Of a stretch of 47,279 bases of DNA, positions 16,889-37,275 are shown piece by piece. Location of the stretch: contig CAIFEQ010000013.1 of assembly GCA_903789495.1 (NCBI GenBank), forward strand, positions 1 through 47,279, given 5' to 3'. The notes beneath the pieces are model-generated. The model was not told where the DNA came from. It saw only the letters and a list, made by a program, of their open reading frames with translations, and did not search any database. Made by a program: the position numbers and the translations under genes. The stretch's first letter is position 1. Each line of letters opens with the position of its first letter. This stretch comes from an uncultured Erysipelotrichaceae bacterium (GTDB lineage Bacteria; Bacillota_I; Bacilli_A; Erysipelotrichales; Erysipelotrichaceae).

Positions 16889-17941
16889 TCAGCCCAGGTC
16901 GTCCTCGATGGCACTGCTCTTGGCATAGGCCGTGGAGCGGGCCTCGAAGAAGTCGGTCTTGACCAGGTTGGCGTTGGCATACTGGGAGACCCAGGTCATG
17001 GTTTCGGGTTCTTCGTCATAACCCTCATAGAGTTTTCCGATGCCAAGCGAGGTGGCACGCAGATTGCCCAGATAGCGGATGTAGTCCTCGACCATCCGGC
17101 TGTTAAGACCCGGGATTTTATCGCCGATGACATACTGGCCCCAGGCGATCTCCTGCCGCACCCCTTCCCGTAACATGTCCTTAATCATTTCGATGTTCTC
17201 CGGGGTGAAGAGCTGGGGTTCTTCCTTCTGCAGTTCCAGGAGAATTTCCCGGAAAAGCCAGAGGTGGGTGTTCTCATCCCGGTTGATGTAGCGGATCTCC
17301 TGCACGGAACCCGGCATCTTGCCGTTGCGGCCGAGGTTGTAGAAGAACATGAAGCCGGAATAGAAGTAGATGCCTTCCAGGATGTAGTTGGCCACACAGA
17401 CCCGCAGGAAGGTCGTCTTGTCGGGAGAAGCGAGGAATTCATTGTAGAGGCTGCCGATGTAGGTGTTGCGCCGCAGCAGGTGCTCATCCTCTTTCCACTG
17501 GTAGAGAATCTCATCCCTTCTGGTCGGGGTGCAGATGGAGTCCAGCATGTAGCTGTAGGCCTGAGAGTGGATGCACTCCTGGAAGGTCTGAATGGCCAGG
17601 CAGAGGGAGACCTCGTTGGCCGTGACATAGGAGGACACATTGGGCAGGTTGCAGGACTGCAGGGAGTCCAGATAGACCAGGAAGCTGAGGATCTTGTCGT
17701 AGGCAGTGCGCTCCGCTTCTTCCAGATGCGGATAATCCGACTTGTCCTGGCTGAGGTTGATTTCCTCCGGCACCCAGAAGTTGTTCATGGCCTGACGGTA
17801 CCAGTCGGAGACCCAGGTGTACTTCAGGTTGTTGAAGTCATTGATGTTGGTGGTGTTGAAGTTGAGCAGACGCCGGCTGACGACATCCGTGTCGCCGTCC
17901 GGGTTGAACAGCGGCTTGCGGGTAATGGAATCCGTTGACAT
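16889..17941 (-). CDS. nrdB: Class I ribonucleotide reductase, small subunit R2
   Basis: The radical-generating subunit, 350 residues from ATG 17941, chosen because AAGGAG lies just upstream. All di-metal ligands are visible: Asp92 (YLDSLQ), Glu122 and His125 (QECIHSQ), Glu189 (ILEGIYFY), Glu223 and His226 (RDENTH). Tyr129, three helical positions after His125, is at the place of the tyrosyl radical residue, so this is a standard tyrosyl-radical R2 and not a Tyr-less type. It follows nrdA by 11 bases; the nrdA stop codon overlaps the ribosome-binding site. No nrdI gene is nearby, which favours class Ia over Ib. Confidence 0.93.
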   Translation of the reverse strand: MSTDSITRKPLFNPDGDTDVVSRRLLNFNTTNINDFNNLKYTWVSDWYRQAMNNFWVPEEINLSQDKSDYPHLEEAERTAYDKILSFLVYLDSLQSCNLPNVSSYVTANEVSLCLAIQTFQECIHSQAYSYMLDSICTPTRRDEILYQWKEDEHLLRRNTYIGSLYNEFLASPDKTTFLRVCVANYILEGIYFYSGFMFFYNLGRNGKMPGSVQEIRYINRDENTHLWLFREILLELQKEEPQLFTPENIEMIKDMLREGVRQEIAWGQYVIGDKIPGLNSRMVEDYIRYLGNLRATSLGIGKLYEGYDEEPETMTWVSQYANANLVKTDFFEARSTAYAKSSAIEDDLG

Positions 17942-30555: not shown

Positions 30556-31152
30556 ATGGAAAATGCCTACGAGTTACTCTACATGAGCCGGGCGGGGGAT
30601 GAATATGCCCTGCAGGCTCTTTTTCGTACCTATGCACCGATTCAGCGGGCAGCCGTGAATACGATGATTGCCCGCTACCGGCCGATGGAGATCTATCGGG
30701 AGGACATGATTCAGGAAGCGATGATCCTGCTGCACAAGGCCTTTGAGACCTACCGGGAGGATCAGTTCTGCTCGTTTAGGTCCTTTCTGGGCCTGATCAC
30801 GGAGCGGCGGATCTTCTCGCTGTTACGGCATTACAGTGCCGGCAGTACGGTGCAGATGCACGACATGCTGTGGCTGGAGGATTTCGCCGAAGCGGACAGC
30901 AGCATCTATGAGGCTCTGCCGGGCAAGGATGCGATGACGGATCCGGTTTACCGCTGTGCCTATGAAGAGGCCCGCCAGAAGGTCCAGTGTGCCTGGGAAC
31001 AGCTGAAGGTGGAGGAGCGCAGTGCTTTGGAGGCTTACCTCAGCGGGGCCAGCTACCAGCAGTCCTGTCAGCGGCTGCAGGTTACCTACAAGACCTACGA
31101 CGGCCGGCTGCAGCGGGCCCGGAAGAAAATCCACGCCGCCCTGCGGTCGTGA
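30556..31152 (+). CDS. sigH: Sigma-70 family RNA polymerase sigma factor (SigH position)
   Basis: A 198-residue sigma factor with region 2 (about 15-95, including REDMIQEAMILLHKAFETYR and FRSFLGLITERRIFSLLRHY) and a C-terminal region 4 helix-turn-helix (about 145-195, LEAYLSGASYQQSCQRLQVTYKTYDGRLQRARKKI). Domains 1 and 3 are absent. Its place between rlmB and rpmG-secE-nusG is that of sigH in Bacillus. The sequence is divergent from SigH, so it may serve a different stress or transition-state regulon. ATG 30556 was chosen because AGGAGGGG precedes it; upstream in-frame codons lie inside rlmB. Confidence 0.82.
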   Translation: MENAYELLYMSRAGDEYALQALFRTYAPIQRAAVNTMIARYRPMEIYREDMIQEAMILLHKAFETYREDQFCSFRSFLGLITERRIFSLLRHYSAGSTVQMHDMLWLEDFAEADSSIYEALPGKDAMTDPVYRCAYEEARQKVQCAWEQLKVEERSALEAYLSGASYQQSCQRLQVTYKTYDGRLQRARKKIHAALRS

Positions 31153-31182
31153 TTGACGGCGAAACGGCGCTTGTGCTAAGGT
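31153..31182 (+). promoter_or_regulatory. Promoter of rpmG-secE-nusG
   Basis: TTGACG and TAAGGT are separated by 18 bases, and TGC precedes the -10. It begins immediately after the sigH stop codon, 30 bases before rpmG's leader ends in GAGGAG. Confidence 0.55.
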
Positions 31183-31213
31183 AGGGTAGCATTTGCAATG
31201 AGGAGTTTTTGTC

Positions 31214-31369
31214 ATGGCCAAGGGCAGTCGCAAAGTGATTCTGGTATGTTCGGTGTGTCTTTCCCGGAACTACACCACCACCCGTTCCAATGACAGAACC
31301 ACCCGCCTGGAACTGATGAAGTACTGTCCCAGATGCGGGCGTAAAACCCTTCATAAGGAAAGCAGATAG
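31214..31369 (+). CDS. rpmG: 50S ribosomal protein L33
   Basis: A 51-residue protein of the large ribosomal subunit. It has the zinc-binding type of L33: CSVC (residues 12-15) and CPRC (38-41), with the family segments RNYTTTRSN and TLHKES. It is shorter than the usual gene-finder cut-off. AGGAG lies 9 bases before the ATG. It ends in TAG, the only gene in the window that does, and the protein length shows that this TAG is a true stop. It sits between sigH and secE as in Bacillus (rpmGB). Confidence 0.94.
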
Positions 31370-31385
31370 GAGGAGTCCCTGCTAT

Positions 31386-31571
31386 ATGGATCGTACATTC
31401 AGCTGGAGCGGCATCCGCAAGGAAGCCAGGCGTGTGCGCTGGCCCAAGCGCGGTGATGTCATGCGCAATACGGGAGAAGTCGTCCTCTTCACGGCGCTTT
31501 TTGCCCTGTTCTTCATTTTCTGCGATTTCATCGCATCGAATCTGCTGGCCCTGCTGGGCATCGGAGGGTGA
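31386..31571 (+). CDS. secE: Preprotein translocase subunit SecE
   Basis: A 61-residue single-span membrane protein of the SecYEG channel. The conserved amphipathic helix has RKEARRVRWPKRGDVM (residues 11-26), where the W-P pair is the SecE signature, and the membrane span covers about residues 31-55. AGGAGG lies 10 bases upstream of the ATG. It is followed by nusG after 4 bases, the nearly universal secE-nusG pair. Confidence 0.93.
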   Translation: MDRTFSWSGIRKEARRVRWPKRGDVMRNTGEVVLFTALFALFFIFCDFIASNLLALLGIGG

Positions 31572-31575
31572 GCCT

Positions 31576-32160
31576 ATGACGATGACAGAGGAAGAAGCCA
31601 GAAAGCTGGTCGATGACGAGAACCAGAAGCGCTGGTATGTCGTAAATACCTTTTAGGGGCATGGAAACAGCGTCAAGGATGCCCGGGAGGAACGGATTGC
31701 AACCATGGGCATTCAGGACAGCCTGTTCCGGGTGCTGGTGGCGGAAGAGCCGGAAATCGAGATCAAGAACGGCAAGAAGGTTGAGAAGATGCGCAACCTC
31801 TTCCCGGGCTATGTGTTTGTCGAGATGAAGATGACGGATGAGGCCTGGTATGTCGTCCGGAATACCCCGGGCGTGACCGGATTCATCGGTTCTTCCGGCG
31901 GCGGTGCCAAACCGTTCCCGGTTTCCCCGGATGAGATGGAATCCATCCTGCGCCGGATGGGGCAGTCGGACAAGAAGATCGTGGTCGACTTCCAGGTCGG
32001 CGATACGGTCCGCATTCTGGCTGGTCCTTTCAGCGGCATGGAAGGCAGGATTTCTTCCATGAACGATCAGACGCAGACGGCTTCTGTTCTGACGATGCTG
32101 TTCGGACGGGAAACCCCGACCGACATCAGCTATACCGATCTGCAGAAAGTCACGGAGTAA
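31576..32160 (+). CDS. nusG: Transcription elongation factor NusG, interrupted by an in-frame amber codon
   Basis: NusG binds RNA polymerase to control pausing, termination and coupling to translation. Read in one frame, codons 1-26 end in KRWYVVNTF, the first strand of the NGN domain. Codon 27 (31654-31656) is TAG, and codons 28 onward continue with GHGNSVKDAREERIATMG, the NGN helix, then NLFPGYVFVEM and a C-terminal KOW domain (GDTVRILAGPFSGMEGRI). Homologues have serine or a similar residue at the TAG; TCG to TAG is one change. The next in-frame ATG is 31705 with GGGAGG 14 bases upstream; the resulting 151-residue protein would lack the first strand and helix. This could be a sequencing error, suppression or a real mutation in an essential gene. 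Confidence 0.9.
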
Positions 32161-32165
32161 GCCAT

Positions 32166-32189
32166 AACCGCTGGCAGCAGCGGTTTTTT
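32166..32189 (+). terminator. Terminator after nusG
   Basis: AACCGCTG-GCAG-CAGCGGTT forms a perfect 8-bp stem followed by TTTT, 5 bases after the nusG stop. It separates nusG from the accessory genes and from rplK. Confidence 0.9.
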
Positions 32190-32208
32190 CGTCAGGGGAG
32201 TGGATCAC

Positions 32209-33147
32209 ATGAGCAATTTCGTCATTGCCGTCAGGGCAGTCTGGCCGTTCATTCTGTATATGATTGCCGGCTGGGGACTGAAGAAAAGCGGGAAGGCCGA
32301 TGATTCGTTCTTTGAGAAACTGAATCAGGTCGTCTTTTTCCTGCTGCTGCCGCTGATGGTCTTCCGCAGCATCTATAACATCGACGCCGAGAATGAGCTG
32401 TCTCCCCGTTATGTGCTGTATGTCTTTTTCCTGATCGTGGCGGTGATCCTGGTGTCCGCTGCCATCATTCCCCGCTTCGTGAAGGACCGGAAGAAATGCG
32501 GTGTCATGGTGCAGGGCATCTTCCGGGGCAATGTTCTGCTGTTTGCCCTGCCGCTGGCCGCTTCGGTCTATGGCGAGGAAACCGGCAACAGCGCCGGGGT
32601 GCTGATCGCCCTGATCGCGCCGCTCTTCAACGTCTGCGCCGTGCTGGTGCTGTCCGTGTTCTCGGATCAGCGGAAAGTGGACGCGAAGAGCCTGCTGCAG
32701 AAGGTCGTGACCAATCCGATCATCATCGCGGCGGTGGCAGCGTATCTGCTGCGGCTGTTCCCGCGGCTGCCGGAAGACTTCCTGACGCCCTTCTTCACCC
32801 TGGGACAGATGGCTACCCCGGCTGCCGTCATGGTGCTGGGCGGTACGCTGTCGCTGGAGGCGACCCGGGCGAACATGAAATACATCGGACCGACCCTGCT
32901 GGCCCGCTTTGTCATCGTGCCGGCTCTGTCGGTGCTGTGTGCCCTGGCCCTGGGTTTTTCGGGGTTTGAGATCTTCCTCTCGGCCATCCTGTTTGCCACT
33001 CCGGTGGCTTCGAGTTCCTTCCCCATGGCCGTCAACATGGACTCGGACGGGGAACTGGCAGGCGAAATCCTGGCCCTCAGCACCCTGTTCTGCGTACCGG
33101 CCATTGTGGGCTGGATCGTGGTTCTGGGCAGTCTGGGTCTGATGTGA
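32209..33147 (+). CDS. AEC family transporter (auxin efflux carrier-like permease)
   Basis: A 312-residue membrane protein with about ten spans arranged as two inverted halves, as in the AEC/BASS superfamily. Features seen include the N-terminal IAGWGLKKSGKADDSFFEKLNQVVFF region, in which the helix after span 1 is typical, and LFATPVASSSFPMA near the C-terminus, matching the conserved second-half crossover. Bacterial members carry dicarboxylates, malonate or other small organic acids. The start ATG 32209 follows AGGGGAG by 8 bases. It is the first of the genes inserted between nusG and rplK and shares a bidirectional terminator with the next gene. Confidence 0.85.
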   Translation: MSNFVIAVRAVWPFILYMIAGWGLKKSGKADDSFFEKLNQVVFFLLLPLMVFRSIYNIDAENELSPRYVLYVFFLIVAVILVSAAIIPRFVKDRKKCGVMVQGIFRGNVLLFALPLAASVYGEETGNSAGVLIALIAPLFNVCAVLVLSVFSDQRKVDAKSLLQKVVTNPIIIAAVAAYLLRLFPRLPEDFLTPFFTLGQMATPAAVMVLGGTLSLEATRANMKYIGPTLLARFVIVPALSVLCALALGFSGFEIFLSAILFATPVASSSFPMAVNMDSDGELAGEILALSTLFCVPAIVGWIVVLGSLGLM

Positions 33148-33148
33148 A

Positions 33149-33192
33149 GAAAAAGGAATGCCGGCAGAAAATTCCGGACATTCCTTTTTTTC
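33149..33192. terminator. Bidirectional terminator
   Basis: AGGAATG and CATTCCT form the outer stem and CCGG/CCGG the inner; A-rich on the left and seven T residues on the right allow termination on both strands. It lies between convergent genes. Confidence 0.85.
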
Positions 33193-33193
33193 G

Positions 33194-33946
33194 TCAGACG
33201 TCTGCCTGGACCAGGACCACCGAATAGCTTGGCGAGATGGTTGTGACCAGGGGCTGGAAGAGGGCCTGAACCCGCAGCAGGGCAATCTCATCGGCGGCGG
33301 TCAGGTATTCGTCAGCCGAGAGCTCTTCCTGCATGACTGCCGAGATCGCCTGTTCCAGTTCGTTCTGTTCCTCGGCGGTCAGTTTGATGTCCCCGAAGGC
33401 CAGCAGACCGTGTTCGGTATCGGAGAACTCCGTACGTTCAAGATCCGGCGTGACATAGGACAGCACGGCATGCGGGATCGTGATCGTCACCGTCTGTTCC
33501 GTATCATCGACGACGATATCATCAGCCGTAAGACCGGCCAGATCCACGGTATAGACCCCAGTGCCGTAGTAGGTGATGTCCTGGTACTTGGAGAAGATCT
33601 CCCAGTTTCCCAGGCCGGCCTTGGTCACGGTGGTTTCCACGGACAGCGGCTGTTCCATGACAATGAGTTCGGTATGCTGGCTGGCTTCTTCCAGCACGGC
33701 ATCCTGGAAATCCGCGGCGGTATGGGAGAAGGTCAGCTCTTCCAGCACCACCCCGTTTTCGTCGCTCTGCACGCTGGTCTGGTGGGTCGAGGCCTGCTCA
33801 TGGCGGTACATGCCATAAGCCCCCAGCGCCAGGCCCAGGACAAAGGCCAGCAGGACGAACTTTCCCTGTCCGCGGCTTTTCTTCACGGCCCGGGCAGCGG
33901 CGTCTTCGGCAATCTGGCGGGTTTCCTCACGGTTTTCCATCGGCAT
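33194..33946 (-). CDS. Membrane-anchored DUF4230-like protein
   Basis: A 250-residue protein from ATG 33946, chosen because GGAGG lies 7 bases before it; the frame is open further upstream but without family sequence. Residues 1-30 are cytoplasmic and charged (AARAVKKSRGQGKF), a single membrane span follows (about 30-48, LLAFVLGLALGAYGMY), and the rest is an external mixed alpha-beta domain. The block GTGVYTVDLAGLTADDIVVD followed by VTITIPHAVL resembles DUF4230. Function is unknown. It has its own promoter and diverges from DUF1653. Confidence 0.65.
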   Translation of the reverse strand: MPMENREETRQIAEDAAARAVKKSRGQGKFVLLAFVLGLALGAYGMYRHEQASTHQTSVQSDENGVVLEELTFSHTAADFQDAVLEEASQHTELIVMEQPLSVETTVTKAGLGNWEIFSKYQDITYYGTGVYTVDLAGLTADDIVVDDTEQTVTITIPHAVLSYVTPDLERTEFSDTEHGLLAFGDIKLTAEEQNELEQAISAVMQEELSADEYLTAADEIALLRVQALFQPLVTTISPSYSVVLVQADV

Positions 33947-33965
33947 TTCTCTTCCTCCGACCGAC

Positions 33966-33993
33966 ATCGTAGCAGAAATGTGACAGAGCGCAA
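33966..33993 (-). promoter_or_regulatory. Promoter of the DUF4230-like gene
   Basis: On the minus strand TTGCGC and TACGAT are separated by 16 bases and TGC precedes the -10. Confidence 0.5.
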
Positions 33994-34034
33994 AGCCGCC
34001 CGGCGCGGTAAGATAGGAGCAGAGAGGGGGAGGC

Positions 34035-34310
34035 ATGCAGGAGAATACCTTTCTGCCGGGAGATCTGGTCCGGCATTTCAAATGGGAGCTGCTCAGTGCC
34101 GAAGAACAGCAGACGGATCGGTATCTGTACCGCATCATCGGCAGAGCCCGGCATACCGAGACCGGCGAGGAGCTGATGATCTATCAGGCCCTGGCTGCGC
34201 CGCAGCAGCTCTATGCCCGTCCCCTGGCCATGTTTCTCAGTGAAGTGGATCATCAGAAGTACCCGGATGTGAAACAGAAATACCGCTTTGAAAGGATCAG
34301 CGGCCGATGA
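34035..34310 (+). CDS. DUF1653 domain protein
   Basis: A 91-residue soluble protein. FLPGDLVRHFKWE at residues 6-18, YRIIGRARHTETGEELMIYQAL at 32-53 and ARPLAMFLSEVD at 61-72 follow the DUF1653 pattern (small beta barrel with a conserved GxxxRHFK). Its function is not known. GGGGGAGG precedes the ATG. It overlaps the next gene by 4 bases, so the two are cotranscribed from a promoter in the 88-base divergent gap. Confidence 0.8.
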   Translation: MQENTFLPGDLVRHFKWELLSAEEQQTDRYLYRIIGRARHTETGEELMIYQALAAPQQLYARPLAMFLSEVDHQKYPDVKQKYRFERISGR

Positions 34311-36081
34311 AACGCTGGCTGCGATGCAATCGGGAAGCGCTGCTGGTCAGTCTGGGGCTGACCCTGGTTTTCTGTTATCCCTGGCTGTTCCGGGATGCAG
34401 TCTACGAGGCGCAGGATACGATGTTTCATCTGACCCGGCTGGGCAGTCTGAGTCAGGCGCTGCAGCAGCATGACTTCCTGCCGGCGGTCTATGGGGAGGA
34501 GAACTACGCGTTCGGCTACGGGAGTCCGCTTTTTTATAATGATCTTCTGCTGGTGCCCTTTGCGGCCCTGCATGCGGCGGGGCTGCCGCTGGTCACAGCG
34601 TTCAAGCTGTATCTCGGGGTGTGCTGCTACGTGGGCTGTTACTGGATGCACCGCTTTCTGAGCCGGCTGGTACCGGACAGCCATGGAGCTGTGCTGATCA
34701 GTCTGTGTGCGTATACCTTTGCCAATTACCGCATCACGGACTTCTATATCCGCAATGCCCTGGGCGAGGTGTCGGCCATGGCCTTTCTGCCCCTGGTCCT
34801 GCTGGGCCTGCTGGAAATTCTGAACGGGGAGACCAGGCCGGGAGAAGGACATCTCTGCGGCGGCCTCACCGGGATTCTGCTGTCGCATAATCTGAGCTTC
34901 CTGATGACGGCGGTCCTGCTGGTGCTGTTTGTCCTGGTGAGTCTGAAACGCATGCACCGGGCTCAGTGGCAGGTCCTGTGCAAAGCCGCGCTGAAGGCTT
35001 TCCTGCTGACCTGCTGGTTCACCCTGCCCATGCTGGAGCAGCTGGCTTCCCAGGACTTCTATCTGCAGCAGACTACGGGCAATGCCCTGCGCCCGCATGC
35101 CATGTACCTGATCCAGTACCTGGCCAATGTGACGAGCTTCGGGGGCAGCGGGGATGACTATGCGGCAGAAGAGCGGATGCTGGTGAATCCCGGGTACTTT
35201 GCCATGCTGGCGCCGCTGACCCTGCTGGTGAAAGGGGAGAAGAAGGAGAATACGTACTTTGCCTGGCGCTGCTTCGGACTGGGCTATGGCTGTCTGGTGA
35301 TGGCCGGAAGGATCATCCCCTGGGACAGTGCCTTGCTGAAGCCATTCAGCCTGATTCAGTTTCCCTGGCGGCTGATGACCCTGGCCCTGCCGCTGCTGAT
35401 CGCGGCGGCCTGTGCCGGGCTGAGCCGTCTGCAGATCAGCGCCCGGCGGAGTTTCTGCGTGCTGCTGTGTGTCCTGCTTTGCGGGGAGGGGTCTGGCATC
35501 TTTCACCCTGCCTGGAACGGGAGGATACCTACAGTGTCCTGCTGGACAGCTCGCTGAGCGATGAGGAAGCGCACGACAAGATCATGCGGATCCGGGAATA
35601 TGTGGAAGAGACGCTCTATGGAGAGGTGCTCATGCAGTTTGACGAAGTTCAGCTGGCCGGGGGAGAGTATCTGCCGCTGATGCATACCGATTTCCGCAGC
35701 CATTCCCGGGCCATCCAGAACGAGGATCATGAAGACCTGGCTCTGGTCTATGAGAAGTACGGCACCACCCTCAGCTTCACGATCAGTCAGGAAGGGGAAC
35801 AGACCCTGATCCTGCCGCTGATCTGGTACAAGGGCTATGTGGTGATGTGCAGCGGAAAGACCTATACGACCTGGCAGGATCCGGATACCGGTCTTGTCGT
35901 CTTTGCCTGTGACGGGCCGGGCACCTATGTCTGTCAGTACCGCAGTACACCCCTGCGCCGGGCCTGCATCGCGGTTTCCGCCCTGACCCTGCTGGTCCTG
36001 GCGGTGATGGGCCGGAAGCGGAAACGGCGGGCAGAAGCGCTCGCTGCCGCTTGCCGGCCGGGCCGAAAACCATTACTATAA
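34307..36081 (+). pseudogene. Frameshifted polytopic membrane protein (6-pyruvoyl-tetrahydropterin synthase-related family)
   Basis: One gene split across two frames. The first part (34307 to about 35490) encodes some ten membrane spans with DTMFHLTRLGSLSQALQQHD and FGYGSPLFYNDLLL, the signature of the PTPS-related membrane family, a glycosyltransferase-like fold. At the run GGGGAGGGG (35483-35491) the frame changes. The second part continues with VWHLSPCLEREDTYSVLLD and ends in a last membrane span and basic tail (GRKRKRRAE). One extra G in the second run would restore 591 codons. As written, the first frame stops at 35557. Either a sequencing error, phase variation or true decay. Confidence 0.75.
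36051..36079 (+). promoter_or_regulatory. Promoter of rplKA
   Basis: TTGCCG and TACTAT are 17 bases apart, inside the 3' end of the membrane protein gene. TATAAA, three bases further on, is an alternative -10. rplK needs its own promoter here because nusG is 4 kb away. Confidence 0.4.
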
Positions 36082-36102
36082 AAAGTCACGGCAGTTTCTG
36101 CC

Positions 36103-36149
36103 GCAGTTTAAGGATGCGTGGGAGGATATCTTCGTCCGCTGACCACTGC
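36103..36149 (+). promoter_or_regulatory. Candidate L1 autoregulatory site in the rplKA leader
   Basis: GCAGT and ACTGC form an outer stem, GGATG and CGTCC an inner stem, with an asymmetric internal loop holding GTGGGAGGAT. The GGATGCGTGGGAGGAT stretch resembles the L1-binding region of 23S rRNA. L1 represses its own operon in many bacteria by binding such a mimic. A simple CGGCAG/CTGCCG hairpin precedes it (36089-36103). The SD AAAGGAG follows. Confidence 0.4.
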
Positions 36150-36169
36150 ATGTGAAAGGAGATTCGCAC

Positions 36170-36597: not shown

Positions 36598-37275
36598 ATG
36601 GCTGGCAAGAAATACGCAGAGGCACTCAAGCAGATTGACCGCACGAAGACCTATCCCTATGCCGAAGCCGTGGCACTGGCCAAGAAGTGCAGCACCTGCA
36701 AGTTCGATGCGACCGTTGAGGTCTCCTACGACCTGAACGTCGATCCCCGTCAGGCGGATCAGAATATCCGCGGCGCCATGGTTCTGCCTAACGGCACCGG
36801 CCGGACGCAGCGGGTCCTGGTCATCACCCAGGGCGAGAAGGAAAACGAGGCCAAAGAAGCCGGCGCCGATTTCGTTGGCGGCCAGGATATGATCGACAAG
36901 ATCAGCGGCGGCTGGATGGACTTCGATGTCATCGTCGCTTCCCCGGATATGATGGGCAAGCTGGGCCGTCTGGGCAAGATTCTGGGTCCCCGCGGTCTGA
37001 TGCCGAACCCCAAGACCGGGACGGTGACCAACAACATCAAGGACGCCGTCACCGAGATCAAGAAGGGCAAGGTCACTTACCGGGTCGACAAGGATGGCAA
37101 TATGAACTGCATTCTCGGCAAGGTCAGCTTCACGGATGACCAGCTGGCCGAGAACTACAAGGCTCTCTATGACCAGATCACCCGGATCCGTCCTTCTTCC
37201 ATCAAGGGCGCCTTCATCAAGTCCATCACGGTTTCCACCACGATGGGCCCGGGCGTCAAGGTCACCATTGAGTAA
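36598..37275 (+). CDS. rplA: 50S ribosomal protein L1
   Basis: A 225-residue ribosomal protein of the L1 stalk that guides deacylated tRNA out of the E site. The signature [23 protein letters not shown] lies around residues 120-142 and the second-domain motif [10 protein letters not shown] just before it. Length and sequence are normal. A strong terminator follows, so rplJ and rplL, which usually come next, are not part of this transcript. Confidence 0.96.

Follow-up and report, generated by a model that had tools for sequence, protein, structure and literature searches.

An in-frame TAG and a short altered stretch in nusG of an uncultured Erysipelotrichaceae bacterium: a probable local assembly error or a real disruption

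The window considered here, that is, the whole stretch of 47,279 nucleotides, is contig 13 of a draft genome of an uncultured Erysipelotrichaceae bacterium (2.115 Mb in 60 contigs, 94.8% complete). It contains rpmG, secE and nusG, in this order, followed by a terminator-like hairpin. The nusG frame (31576-32160) comprises 194 codons and a stop, and is interrupted by a TAG at 31654-31656, in the place of codon 27. The locus has the following features.

31214-31369, plus strand: rpmG, with its TAG stop at 31367-31369
31386-31571, plus strand: secE
31576-32160, plus strand: nusG reading frame, interrupted at codon 27 (from the sequence, the relatives and PF02357)
31576-31656, plus strand: first piece, a 26-codon ORF up to the TAG, strand beta-1 included
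31651-31701, plus strand: altered stretch, codons 26-42, with 7 of 14 near-invariant residues changed
31654-31656, plus strand: in-frame TAG, codon 27 (Ser in 42 and Ala in 2 of 44 same-genus loci)
31685-31690, plus strand: GGGAGG, possible ribosome-binding site 14 nt 5' of ATG 31705
31705-32160, plus strand: second piece, a 151-codon ORF from ATG 31705, with the rest of the NGN domain and KOW, under normal constraint
32166-32185, plus strand: terminator-like hairpin 3' of nusG

The original prediction placed the TAG at codon 27 of a nusG gene lying between secE and a terminator, and this is what the sequence contains; the profile of the NGN domain (PF02357) spans the codon, scoring 92.1 bits against a cut-off of 22.2 only when the frame is read across the TAG. 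The 151-residue ORF taken separately is under the cut-off of the NusG equivalog family TIGR00922 (127 vs 135.7 bits) and covers profile positions 26-171 of 172. By its location after secE, its NGN and KOW sequence and its identity of up to 83% to same-genus NusG, the gene resembles the housekeeping NusG (TIGR00922, PF02357; the secE-nusG locus), from which it differs in the stop at codon 27 and in a helix alpha-1 that no longer has the conserved sequence. The best named matches come from Solobacterium and Erysipelotrichaceae metagenome-assembled genomes, several of them from ruminant guts; since these nearest named relatives are metagenome-assembled, the assembly itself was taken as metagenomic, which it probably is. 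No promoter-like sites were found in the region 31100-32300.

The usual neighbours nusG and rplK are separated here by approximately 4 kb (window 32161-36151); within the genus this gap varies, measuring about 80 bp in the relative G034, 1.5 kb in another and 2.2 kb in a third. A 587-codon open frame runs antisense to nusG and its neighbours (window 31528-33291, minus strand), and is probably a by-product of the high GC content and codon bias.

A nusG match was observed in 64 of the 70 same-genus genomes, the own genome included, and the internal stop was present in the latter only: it occurred in none of the 63 other genomes with a match, 62 of which cover codon 27. For the codon-level reading we used the best 44 of these 62 genomes, representing 39 distinct proteins. 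Codon 27 is TCC in 37 of the 44 loci and TCG in one. The original prediction derived the TAG from TCG by a change of one base, which fits few of the relatives, as TCC is their commonest codon. A wider set, mostly from Bacilli and other Firmicutes, retained 76 of 80 loci (four were dropped having no motif match), of which at least two seem to come from same-genus genomes that were counted before.

In seven members of the genus nusG is absent or cut. The own secE query, which matches directly upstream of nusG in G014 and G067, gave no match in these seven either, while two control genomes were matched, with secE only 54-56% identical there, so that a divergent secE could be missed. These seven cases look like assembly gaps, and loss of nusG alone was hence not seen in the genus. 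Neither protein queries nor PF02357 revealed a second nusG or any other NusG-family gene in the assembled genome, itself 94.8% complete, which leaves the suggestion of a second copy elsewhere without a candidate.

The TAG is not the only change. Residues were compared over codons 20-160, taking as near-invariant the sites with 90% or more conservation among the 44 loci. Seven of the 14 such residues are changed in codons 26-42, compared to one of 91 elsewhere (codons 20-25 and 43-160; Fisher's test, 1.1e-6). At the 14 sites of the stretch, five of the 44 relatives have one change each and none has more, the other 39 being unchanged; at two of the changed positions all 76 loci of the wider set have an identical residue. 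At the base level, compared over codons 20-150 (a base counting as invariant if 43 or all 44 of the relatives share it), the numbers of changed invariant bases are 0/13 in codons 20-25, 6/27 in codons 26-42, and 0/171 in codons 43-150, or 0/184 outside the stretch combined. The left edge of the stretch falls almost exactly at the TAG, the right one is situated one codon before ATG 31705, and there are no insertions or deletions inside. Thus, the altered stretch has sharp edges, is absent from the examined relatives, and is flanked on both sides by sequence under full constraint. It is unlikely that the entire gene has been decaying gradually, as these flanks are untouched, the upstream one being measured on 13 bases only.

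Differences from the relatives at the second codon position constitute 37% inside the stretch vs 5% downstream, and the divergence at the first and second positions (23% and 37%) is near the 44% observed at third positions downstream. All six changed invariant bases had been A or T (hypergeometric probability 0.027 compared to random placement). The NusG structure predicted for one of the relatives (15 sequences, mean pLDDT 85.5) aligns strand beta-1 with own residues 18-25 and helix alpha-1 of the NGN domain with own residues 30-44; the altered stretch thus comprises the turn that follows the strand and the larger part of the helix.

We scanned the contig in 402 windows of 12 near-invariant sites, each site covered in at least six of ten relatives. 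Nine windows had four or five changes, all of them on the nusG patch, and no window outside the patch had more than three; the scan thus revealed nothing comparable on the rest of the contig. There was no other copy of the altered stretch in the own genome, nearby inverted repeats yielded, judged by eye, only short matches without the new letters, and no relatives were confirmed among viral contigs. Its codon usage is not unusual, as 21.6% of windows score as low. In low-identity window scans over the sample the stretch was not separable from ordinary protein divergence, and these scans were not used as evidence.

In our view a single event produced the whole stretch, be it in the assembly or in the cell. 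The best explanation, to which we give about an even chance, is that the TAG is a symptom of a local consensus error of approximately 17 codons in a draft, probably metagenome-assembled, genome. The segment 31651-31701 would have been built from wrong or mixed reads, the cell itself would probably have an ordinary, intact nusG, and the reads would not support the altered stretch. The original prediction had listed a sequencing error of one base, TCG to TAG; an error is indeed the leading explanation, but it would extend over some 17 codons and not one base. The assembly is preferred over the cell as the place of the event, and an artefact is put ahead of a real break, on the following grounds: among 64 genomes this is the only one with an internal stop; the changes are dense inside the stretch, with nearly none outside, and their distribution over codon positions is as if codon structure were ignored; and they affect the sole copy found of a nearly universal gene, in one draft of 60 contigs. 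According to one survey, the complete genomes larger than 0.36 Mb that it covered encoded NusG (PMC7593976).

Several observations speak against an error. The rest of the contig has no comparable stretch, there is no indel, and the edges lie at the TAG and by ATG 31705. Loss of invariant bases that all were A or T is not favoured by uniform noise, and divergence near the third-position level is expected of a stretch long free of constraint. Moreover, other own genes with single in-frame stops could be real pseudogenes. Pseudogenes and consensus errors in metagenome-assembled genomes share with this case a stop in a core single-copy gene that one draft assembly alone shows, but such errors mostly involve one base or an indel, unlike the dense block without indels observed here.

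If the event occurred in the cell, a real and fairly recent multi-base change, e.g. by templated or error-prone repair, would have destroyed helix alpha-1 and added the stop, yielding a tolerated nusG null allele. Such an event is possible, since nusG is dispensable in Bacillus subtilis (PMC7819879), and a Firmicute can thus live without a working NusG; unlike the nusG-less laboratory strains described there, the loss here would be natural, with the rest of the gene kept. Such a change agrees with the bounded, indel-free set of differences and the constraint still seen everywhere outside, and the clean remainder of the contig would not be expected of an assembly of poor overall quality. However, no nearby template that would give the new letters and no other copy of the stretch were found, and the 63 other members of the genus with a match include no broken nusG, so we regard a real disruption as rather unlikely.

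The gene could also be split, with a 26-residue piece ending at the TAG, translation restarting at ATG 31705, and codons 27-43 forming a freely drifting untranslated spacer. We keep this alternative, distinctly improbable as it appears, because the TAG and ATG 31705 bound the altered stretch almost precisely, with constraint retained on both sides, albeit weakly measured on the 13 bases before the stretch. A restart at this codon had been suggested originally, and it has weak support: the possible ribosome-binding site lies upstream, and only 69 of 5080 internal in-frame ATGs in the sample are preceded by GGAGG within 19 nt. On the other hand, the 14-nt spacing was observed in only one of 84 sampled starts bearing GGAGG, and the predicted fold pairs ATG 31705 within a hairpin (z = -2.06, compared to -0.43 to 0.35 in four relatives). 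The restart product would be devoid of beta-1 and of nearly all of helix alpha-1; as the removed helix is highly conserved, the NGN fold would probably suffer. The score of the 151-residue ORF below the TIGR00922 cut-off also speaks against the split. More doubtful still is a functional natural split NusG, in which the 26-residue beta-1 peptide and the 151-residue body, encoded by one mRNA, would assemble without the helix, or the body would act alone. No amber-interrupted or split nusG was reported among the literature titles listed, and the idea that the stop is an unusual way to limit NusG finds nothing in the analysis to sustain it.

Suppression of the amber codon was considered against the use of TAG in the genome. 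Hits on antisense frames having been set aside by eye, TAG terminates 9 of 138 homologue-matched genes, one of the nine on a single 45% match; hence TAG serves this genome as a normal if infrequent stop. The original claim that TAG is a true stop only once in the window, in rpmG, holds among homologue-matched genes, with the distance to the nusG TAG being 287 bases; it does not extend to the wider sample with its nine cases. Four further window ORFs of at least 100 aa in the automatic list end in TAG, all of them minus-strand frames. No CTA-anticodon tRNA was present among 43 over-cut-off tRNA hits (ARAGORN), approximately 5% of the genome being possibly missing; no PylS exceeded the cut-off (best match 24.8 vs 178.15 bits), and RF1 is intact (prfA, 492 bits, no internal stop). 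In the own tRNA set only tRNA-Gln(TTG) was found for glutamine, though CAG constitutes 97% of Gln codons in the sample.

In-frame stops in otherwise open genes were tallied over 847 kb (40% of the genome, the window included), 180 kb of it with homologues for comparison. TAG interrupts four of the five such genes, namely those for NusG, an IS21 transposase, a group II intron reverse transcriptase and a dehydratase-activase fusion, with chance probabilities of 0.045 by gene and 0.10 by stop, in a tally that is uneven: the Pfam check was applied to TAG cases only, TAA and TGA cases were judged chiefly by how far away the next start codon lay, and only some of 24 candidates without a near start were examined further. 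The TAG excess in broken genes is weak, and a few pseudogenes or errors would suffice to produce it.

The IS21-family transposase has one in-frame TAG (L196:7181-7183, minus strand; G000:C3 ~67183), Tyr in a relative, and only one copy was matched in the assembly. The group II intron-type reverse transcriptase also has one (L265:2127-2129, minus strand; G000:C1 ~142129) and is 85% identical to that of a relative, which has Tyr at this position; a similar 67-bp fragment opens contig C1 (L260:1-67). The fusion of a double-cubane/dehydratase-like protein and an acyl-CoA dehydratase activase (TAG at L207:13348-13350, minus strand; G000:C5 ~73350) is open in two relatives, G081 and G083. The fifth gene, which we take to be mannonate-dehydratase-like by resemblance, is otherwise open and has two in-frame TAA 63 bases apart (L268:16921-16923 and 16984-16986, plus strand; G000:C2 ~36921-36986).

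Amber suppression or read-through producing full-length NusG, raised in the original prediction and favoured by the prevalence of TAG in this tally, is therefore highly improbable, given that neither a CTA anticodon nor a PylS over the cut-off was found, and given the intact RF1, the use of TAG as a stop, the fifth gene with its two TAA and the unevenness of the tally, and read-through would not yield a normal protein anyway, as the helix is altered as well, including sites fixed in all 76 loci of the wider set.

If the altered stretch is an error, a draft consensus can carry a dense, indel-free false stretch in a core gene, and a single-base error model would miss it. If it is real, a gut Firmicute would have lost nusG function or split NusG in nature, making it testable whether the conserved NGN domain is dispensable or can be reassembled outside the laboratory.
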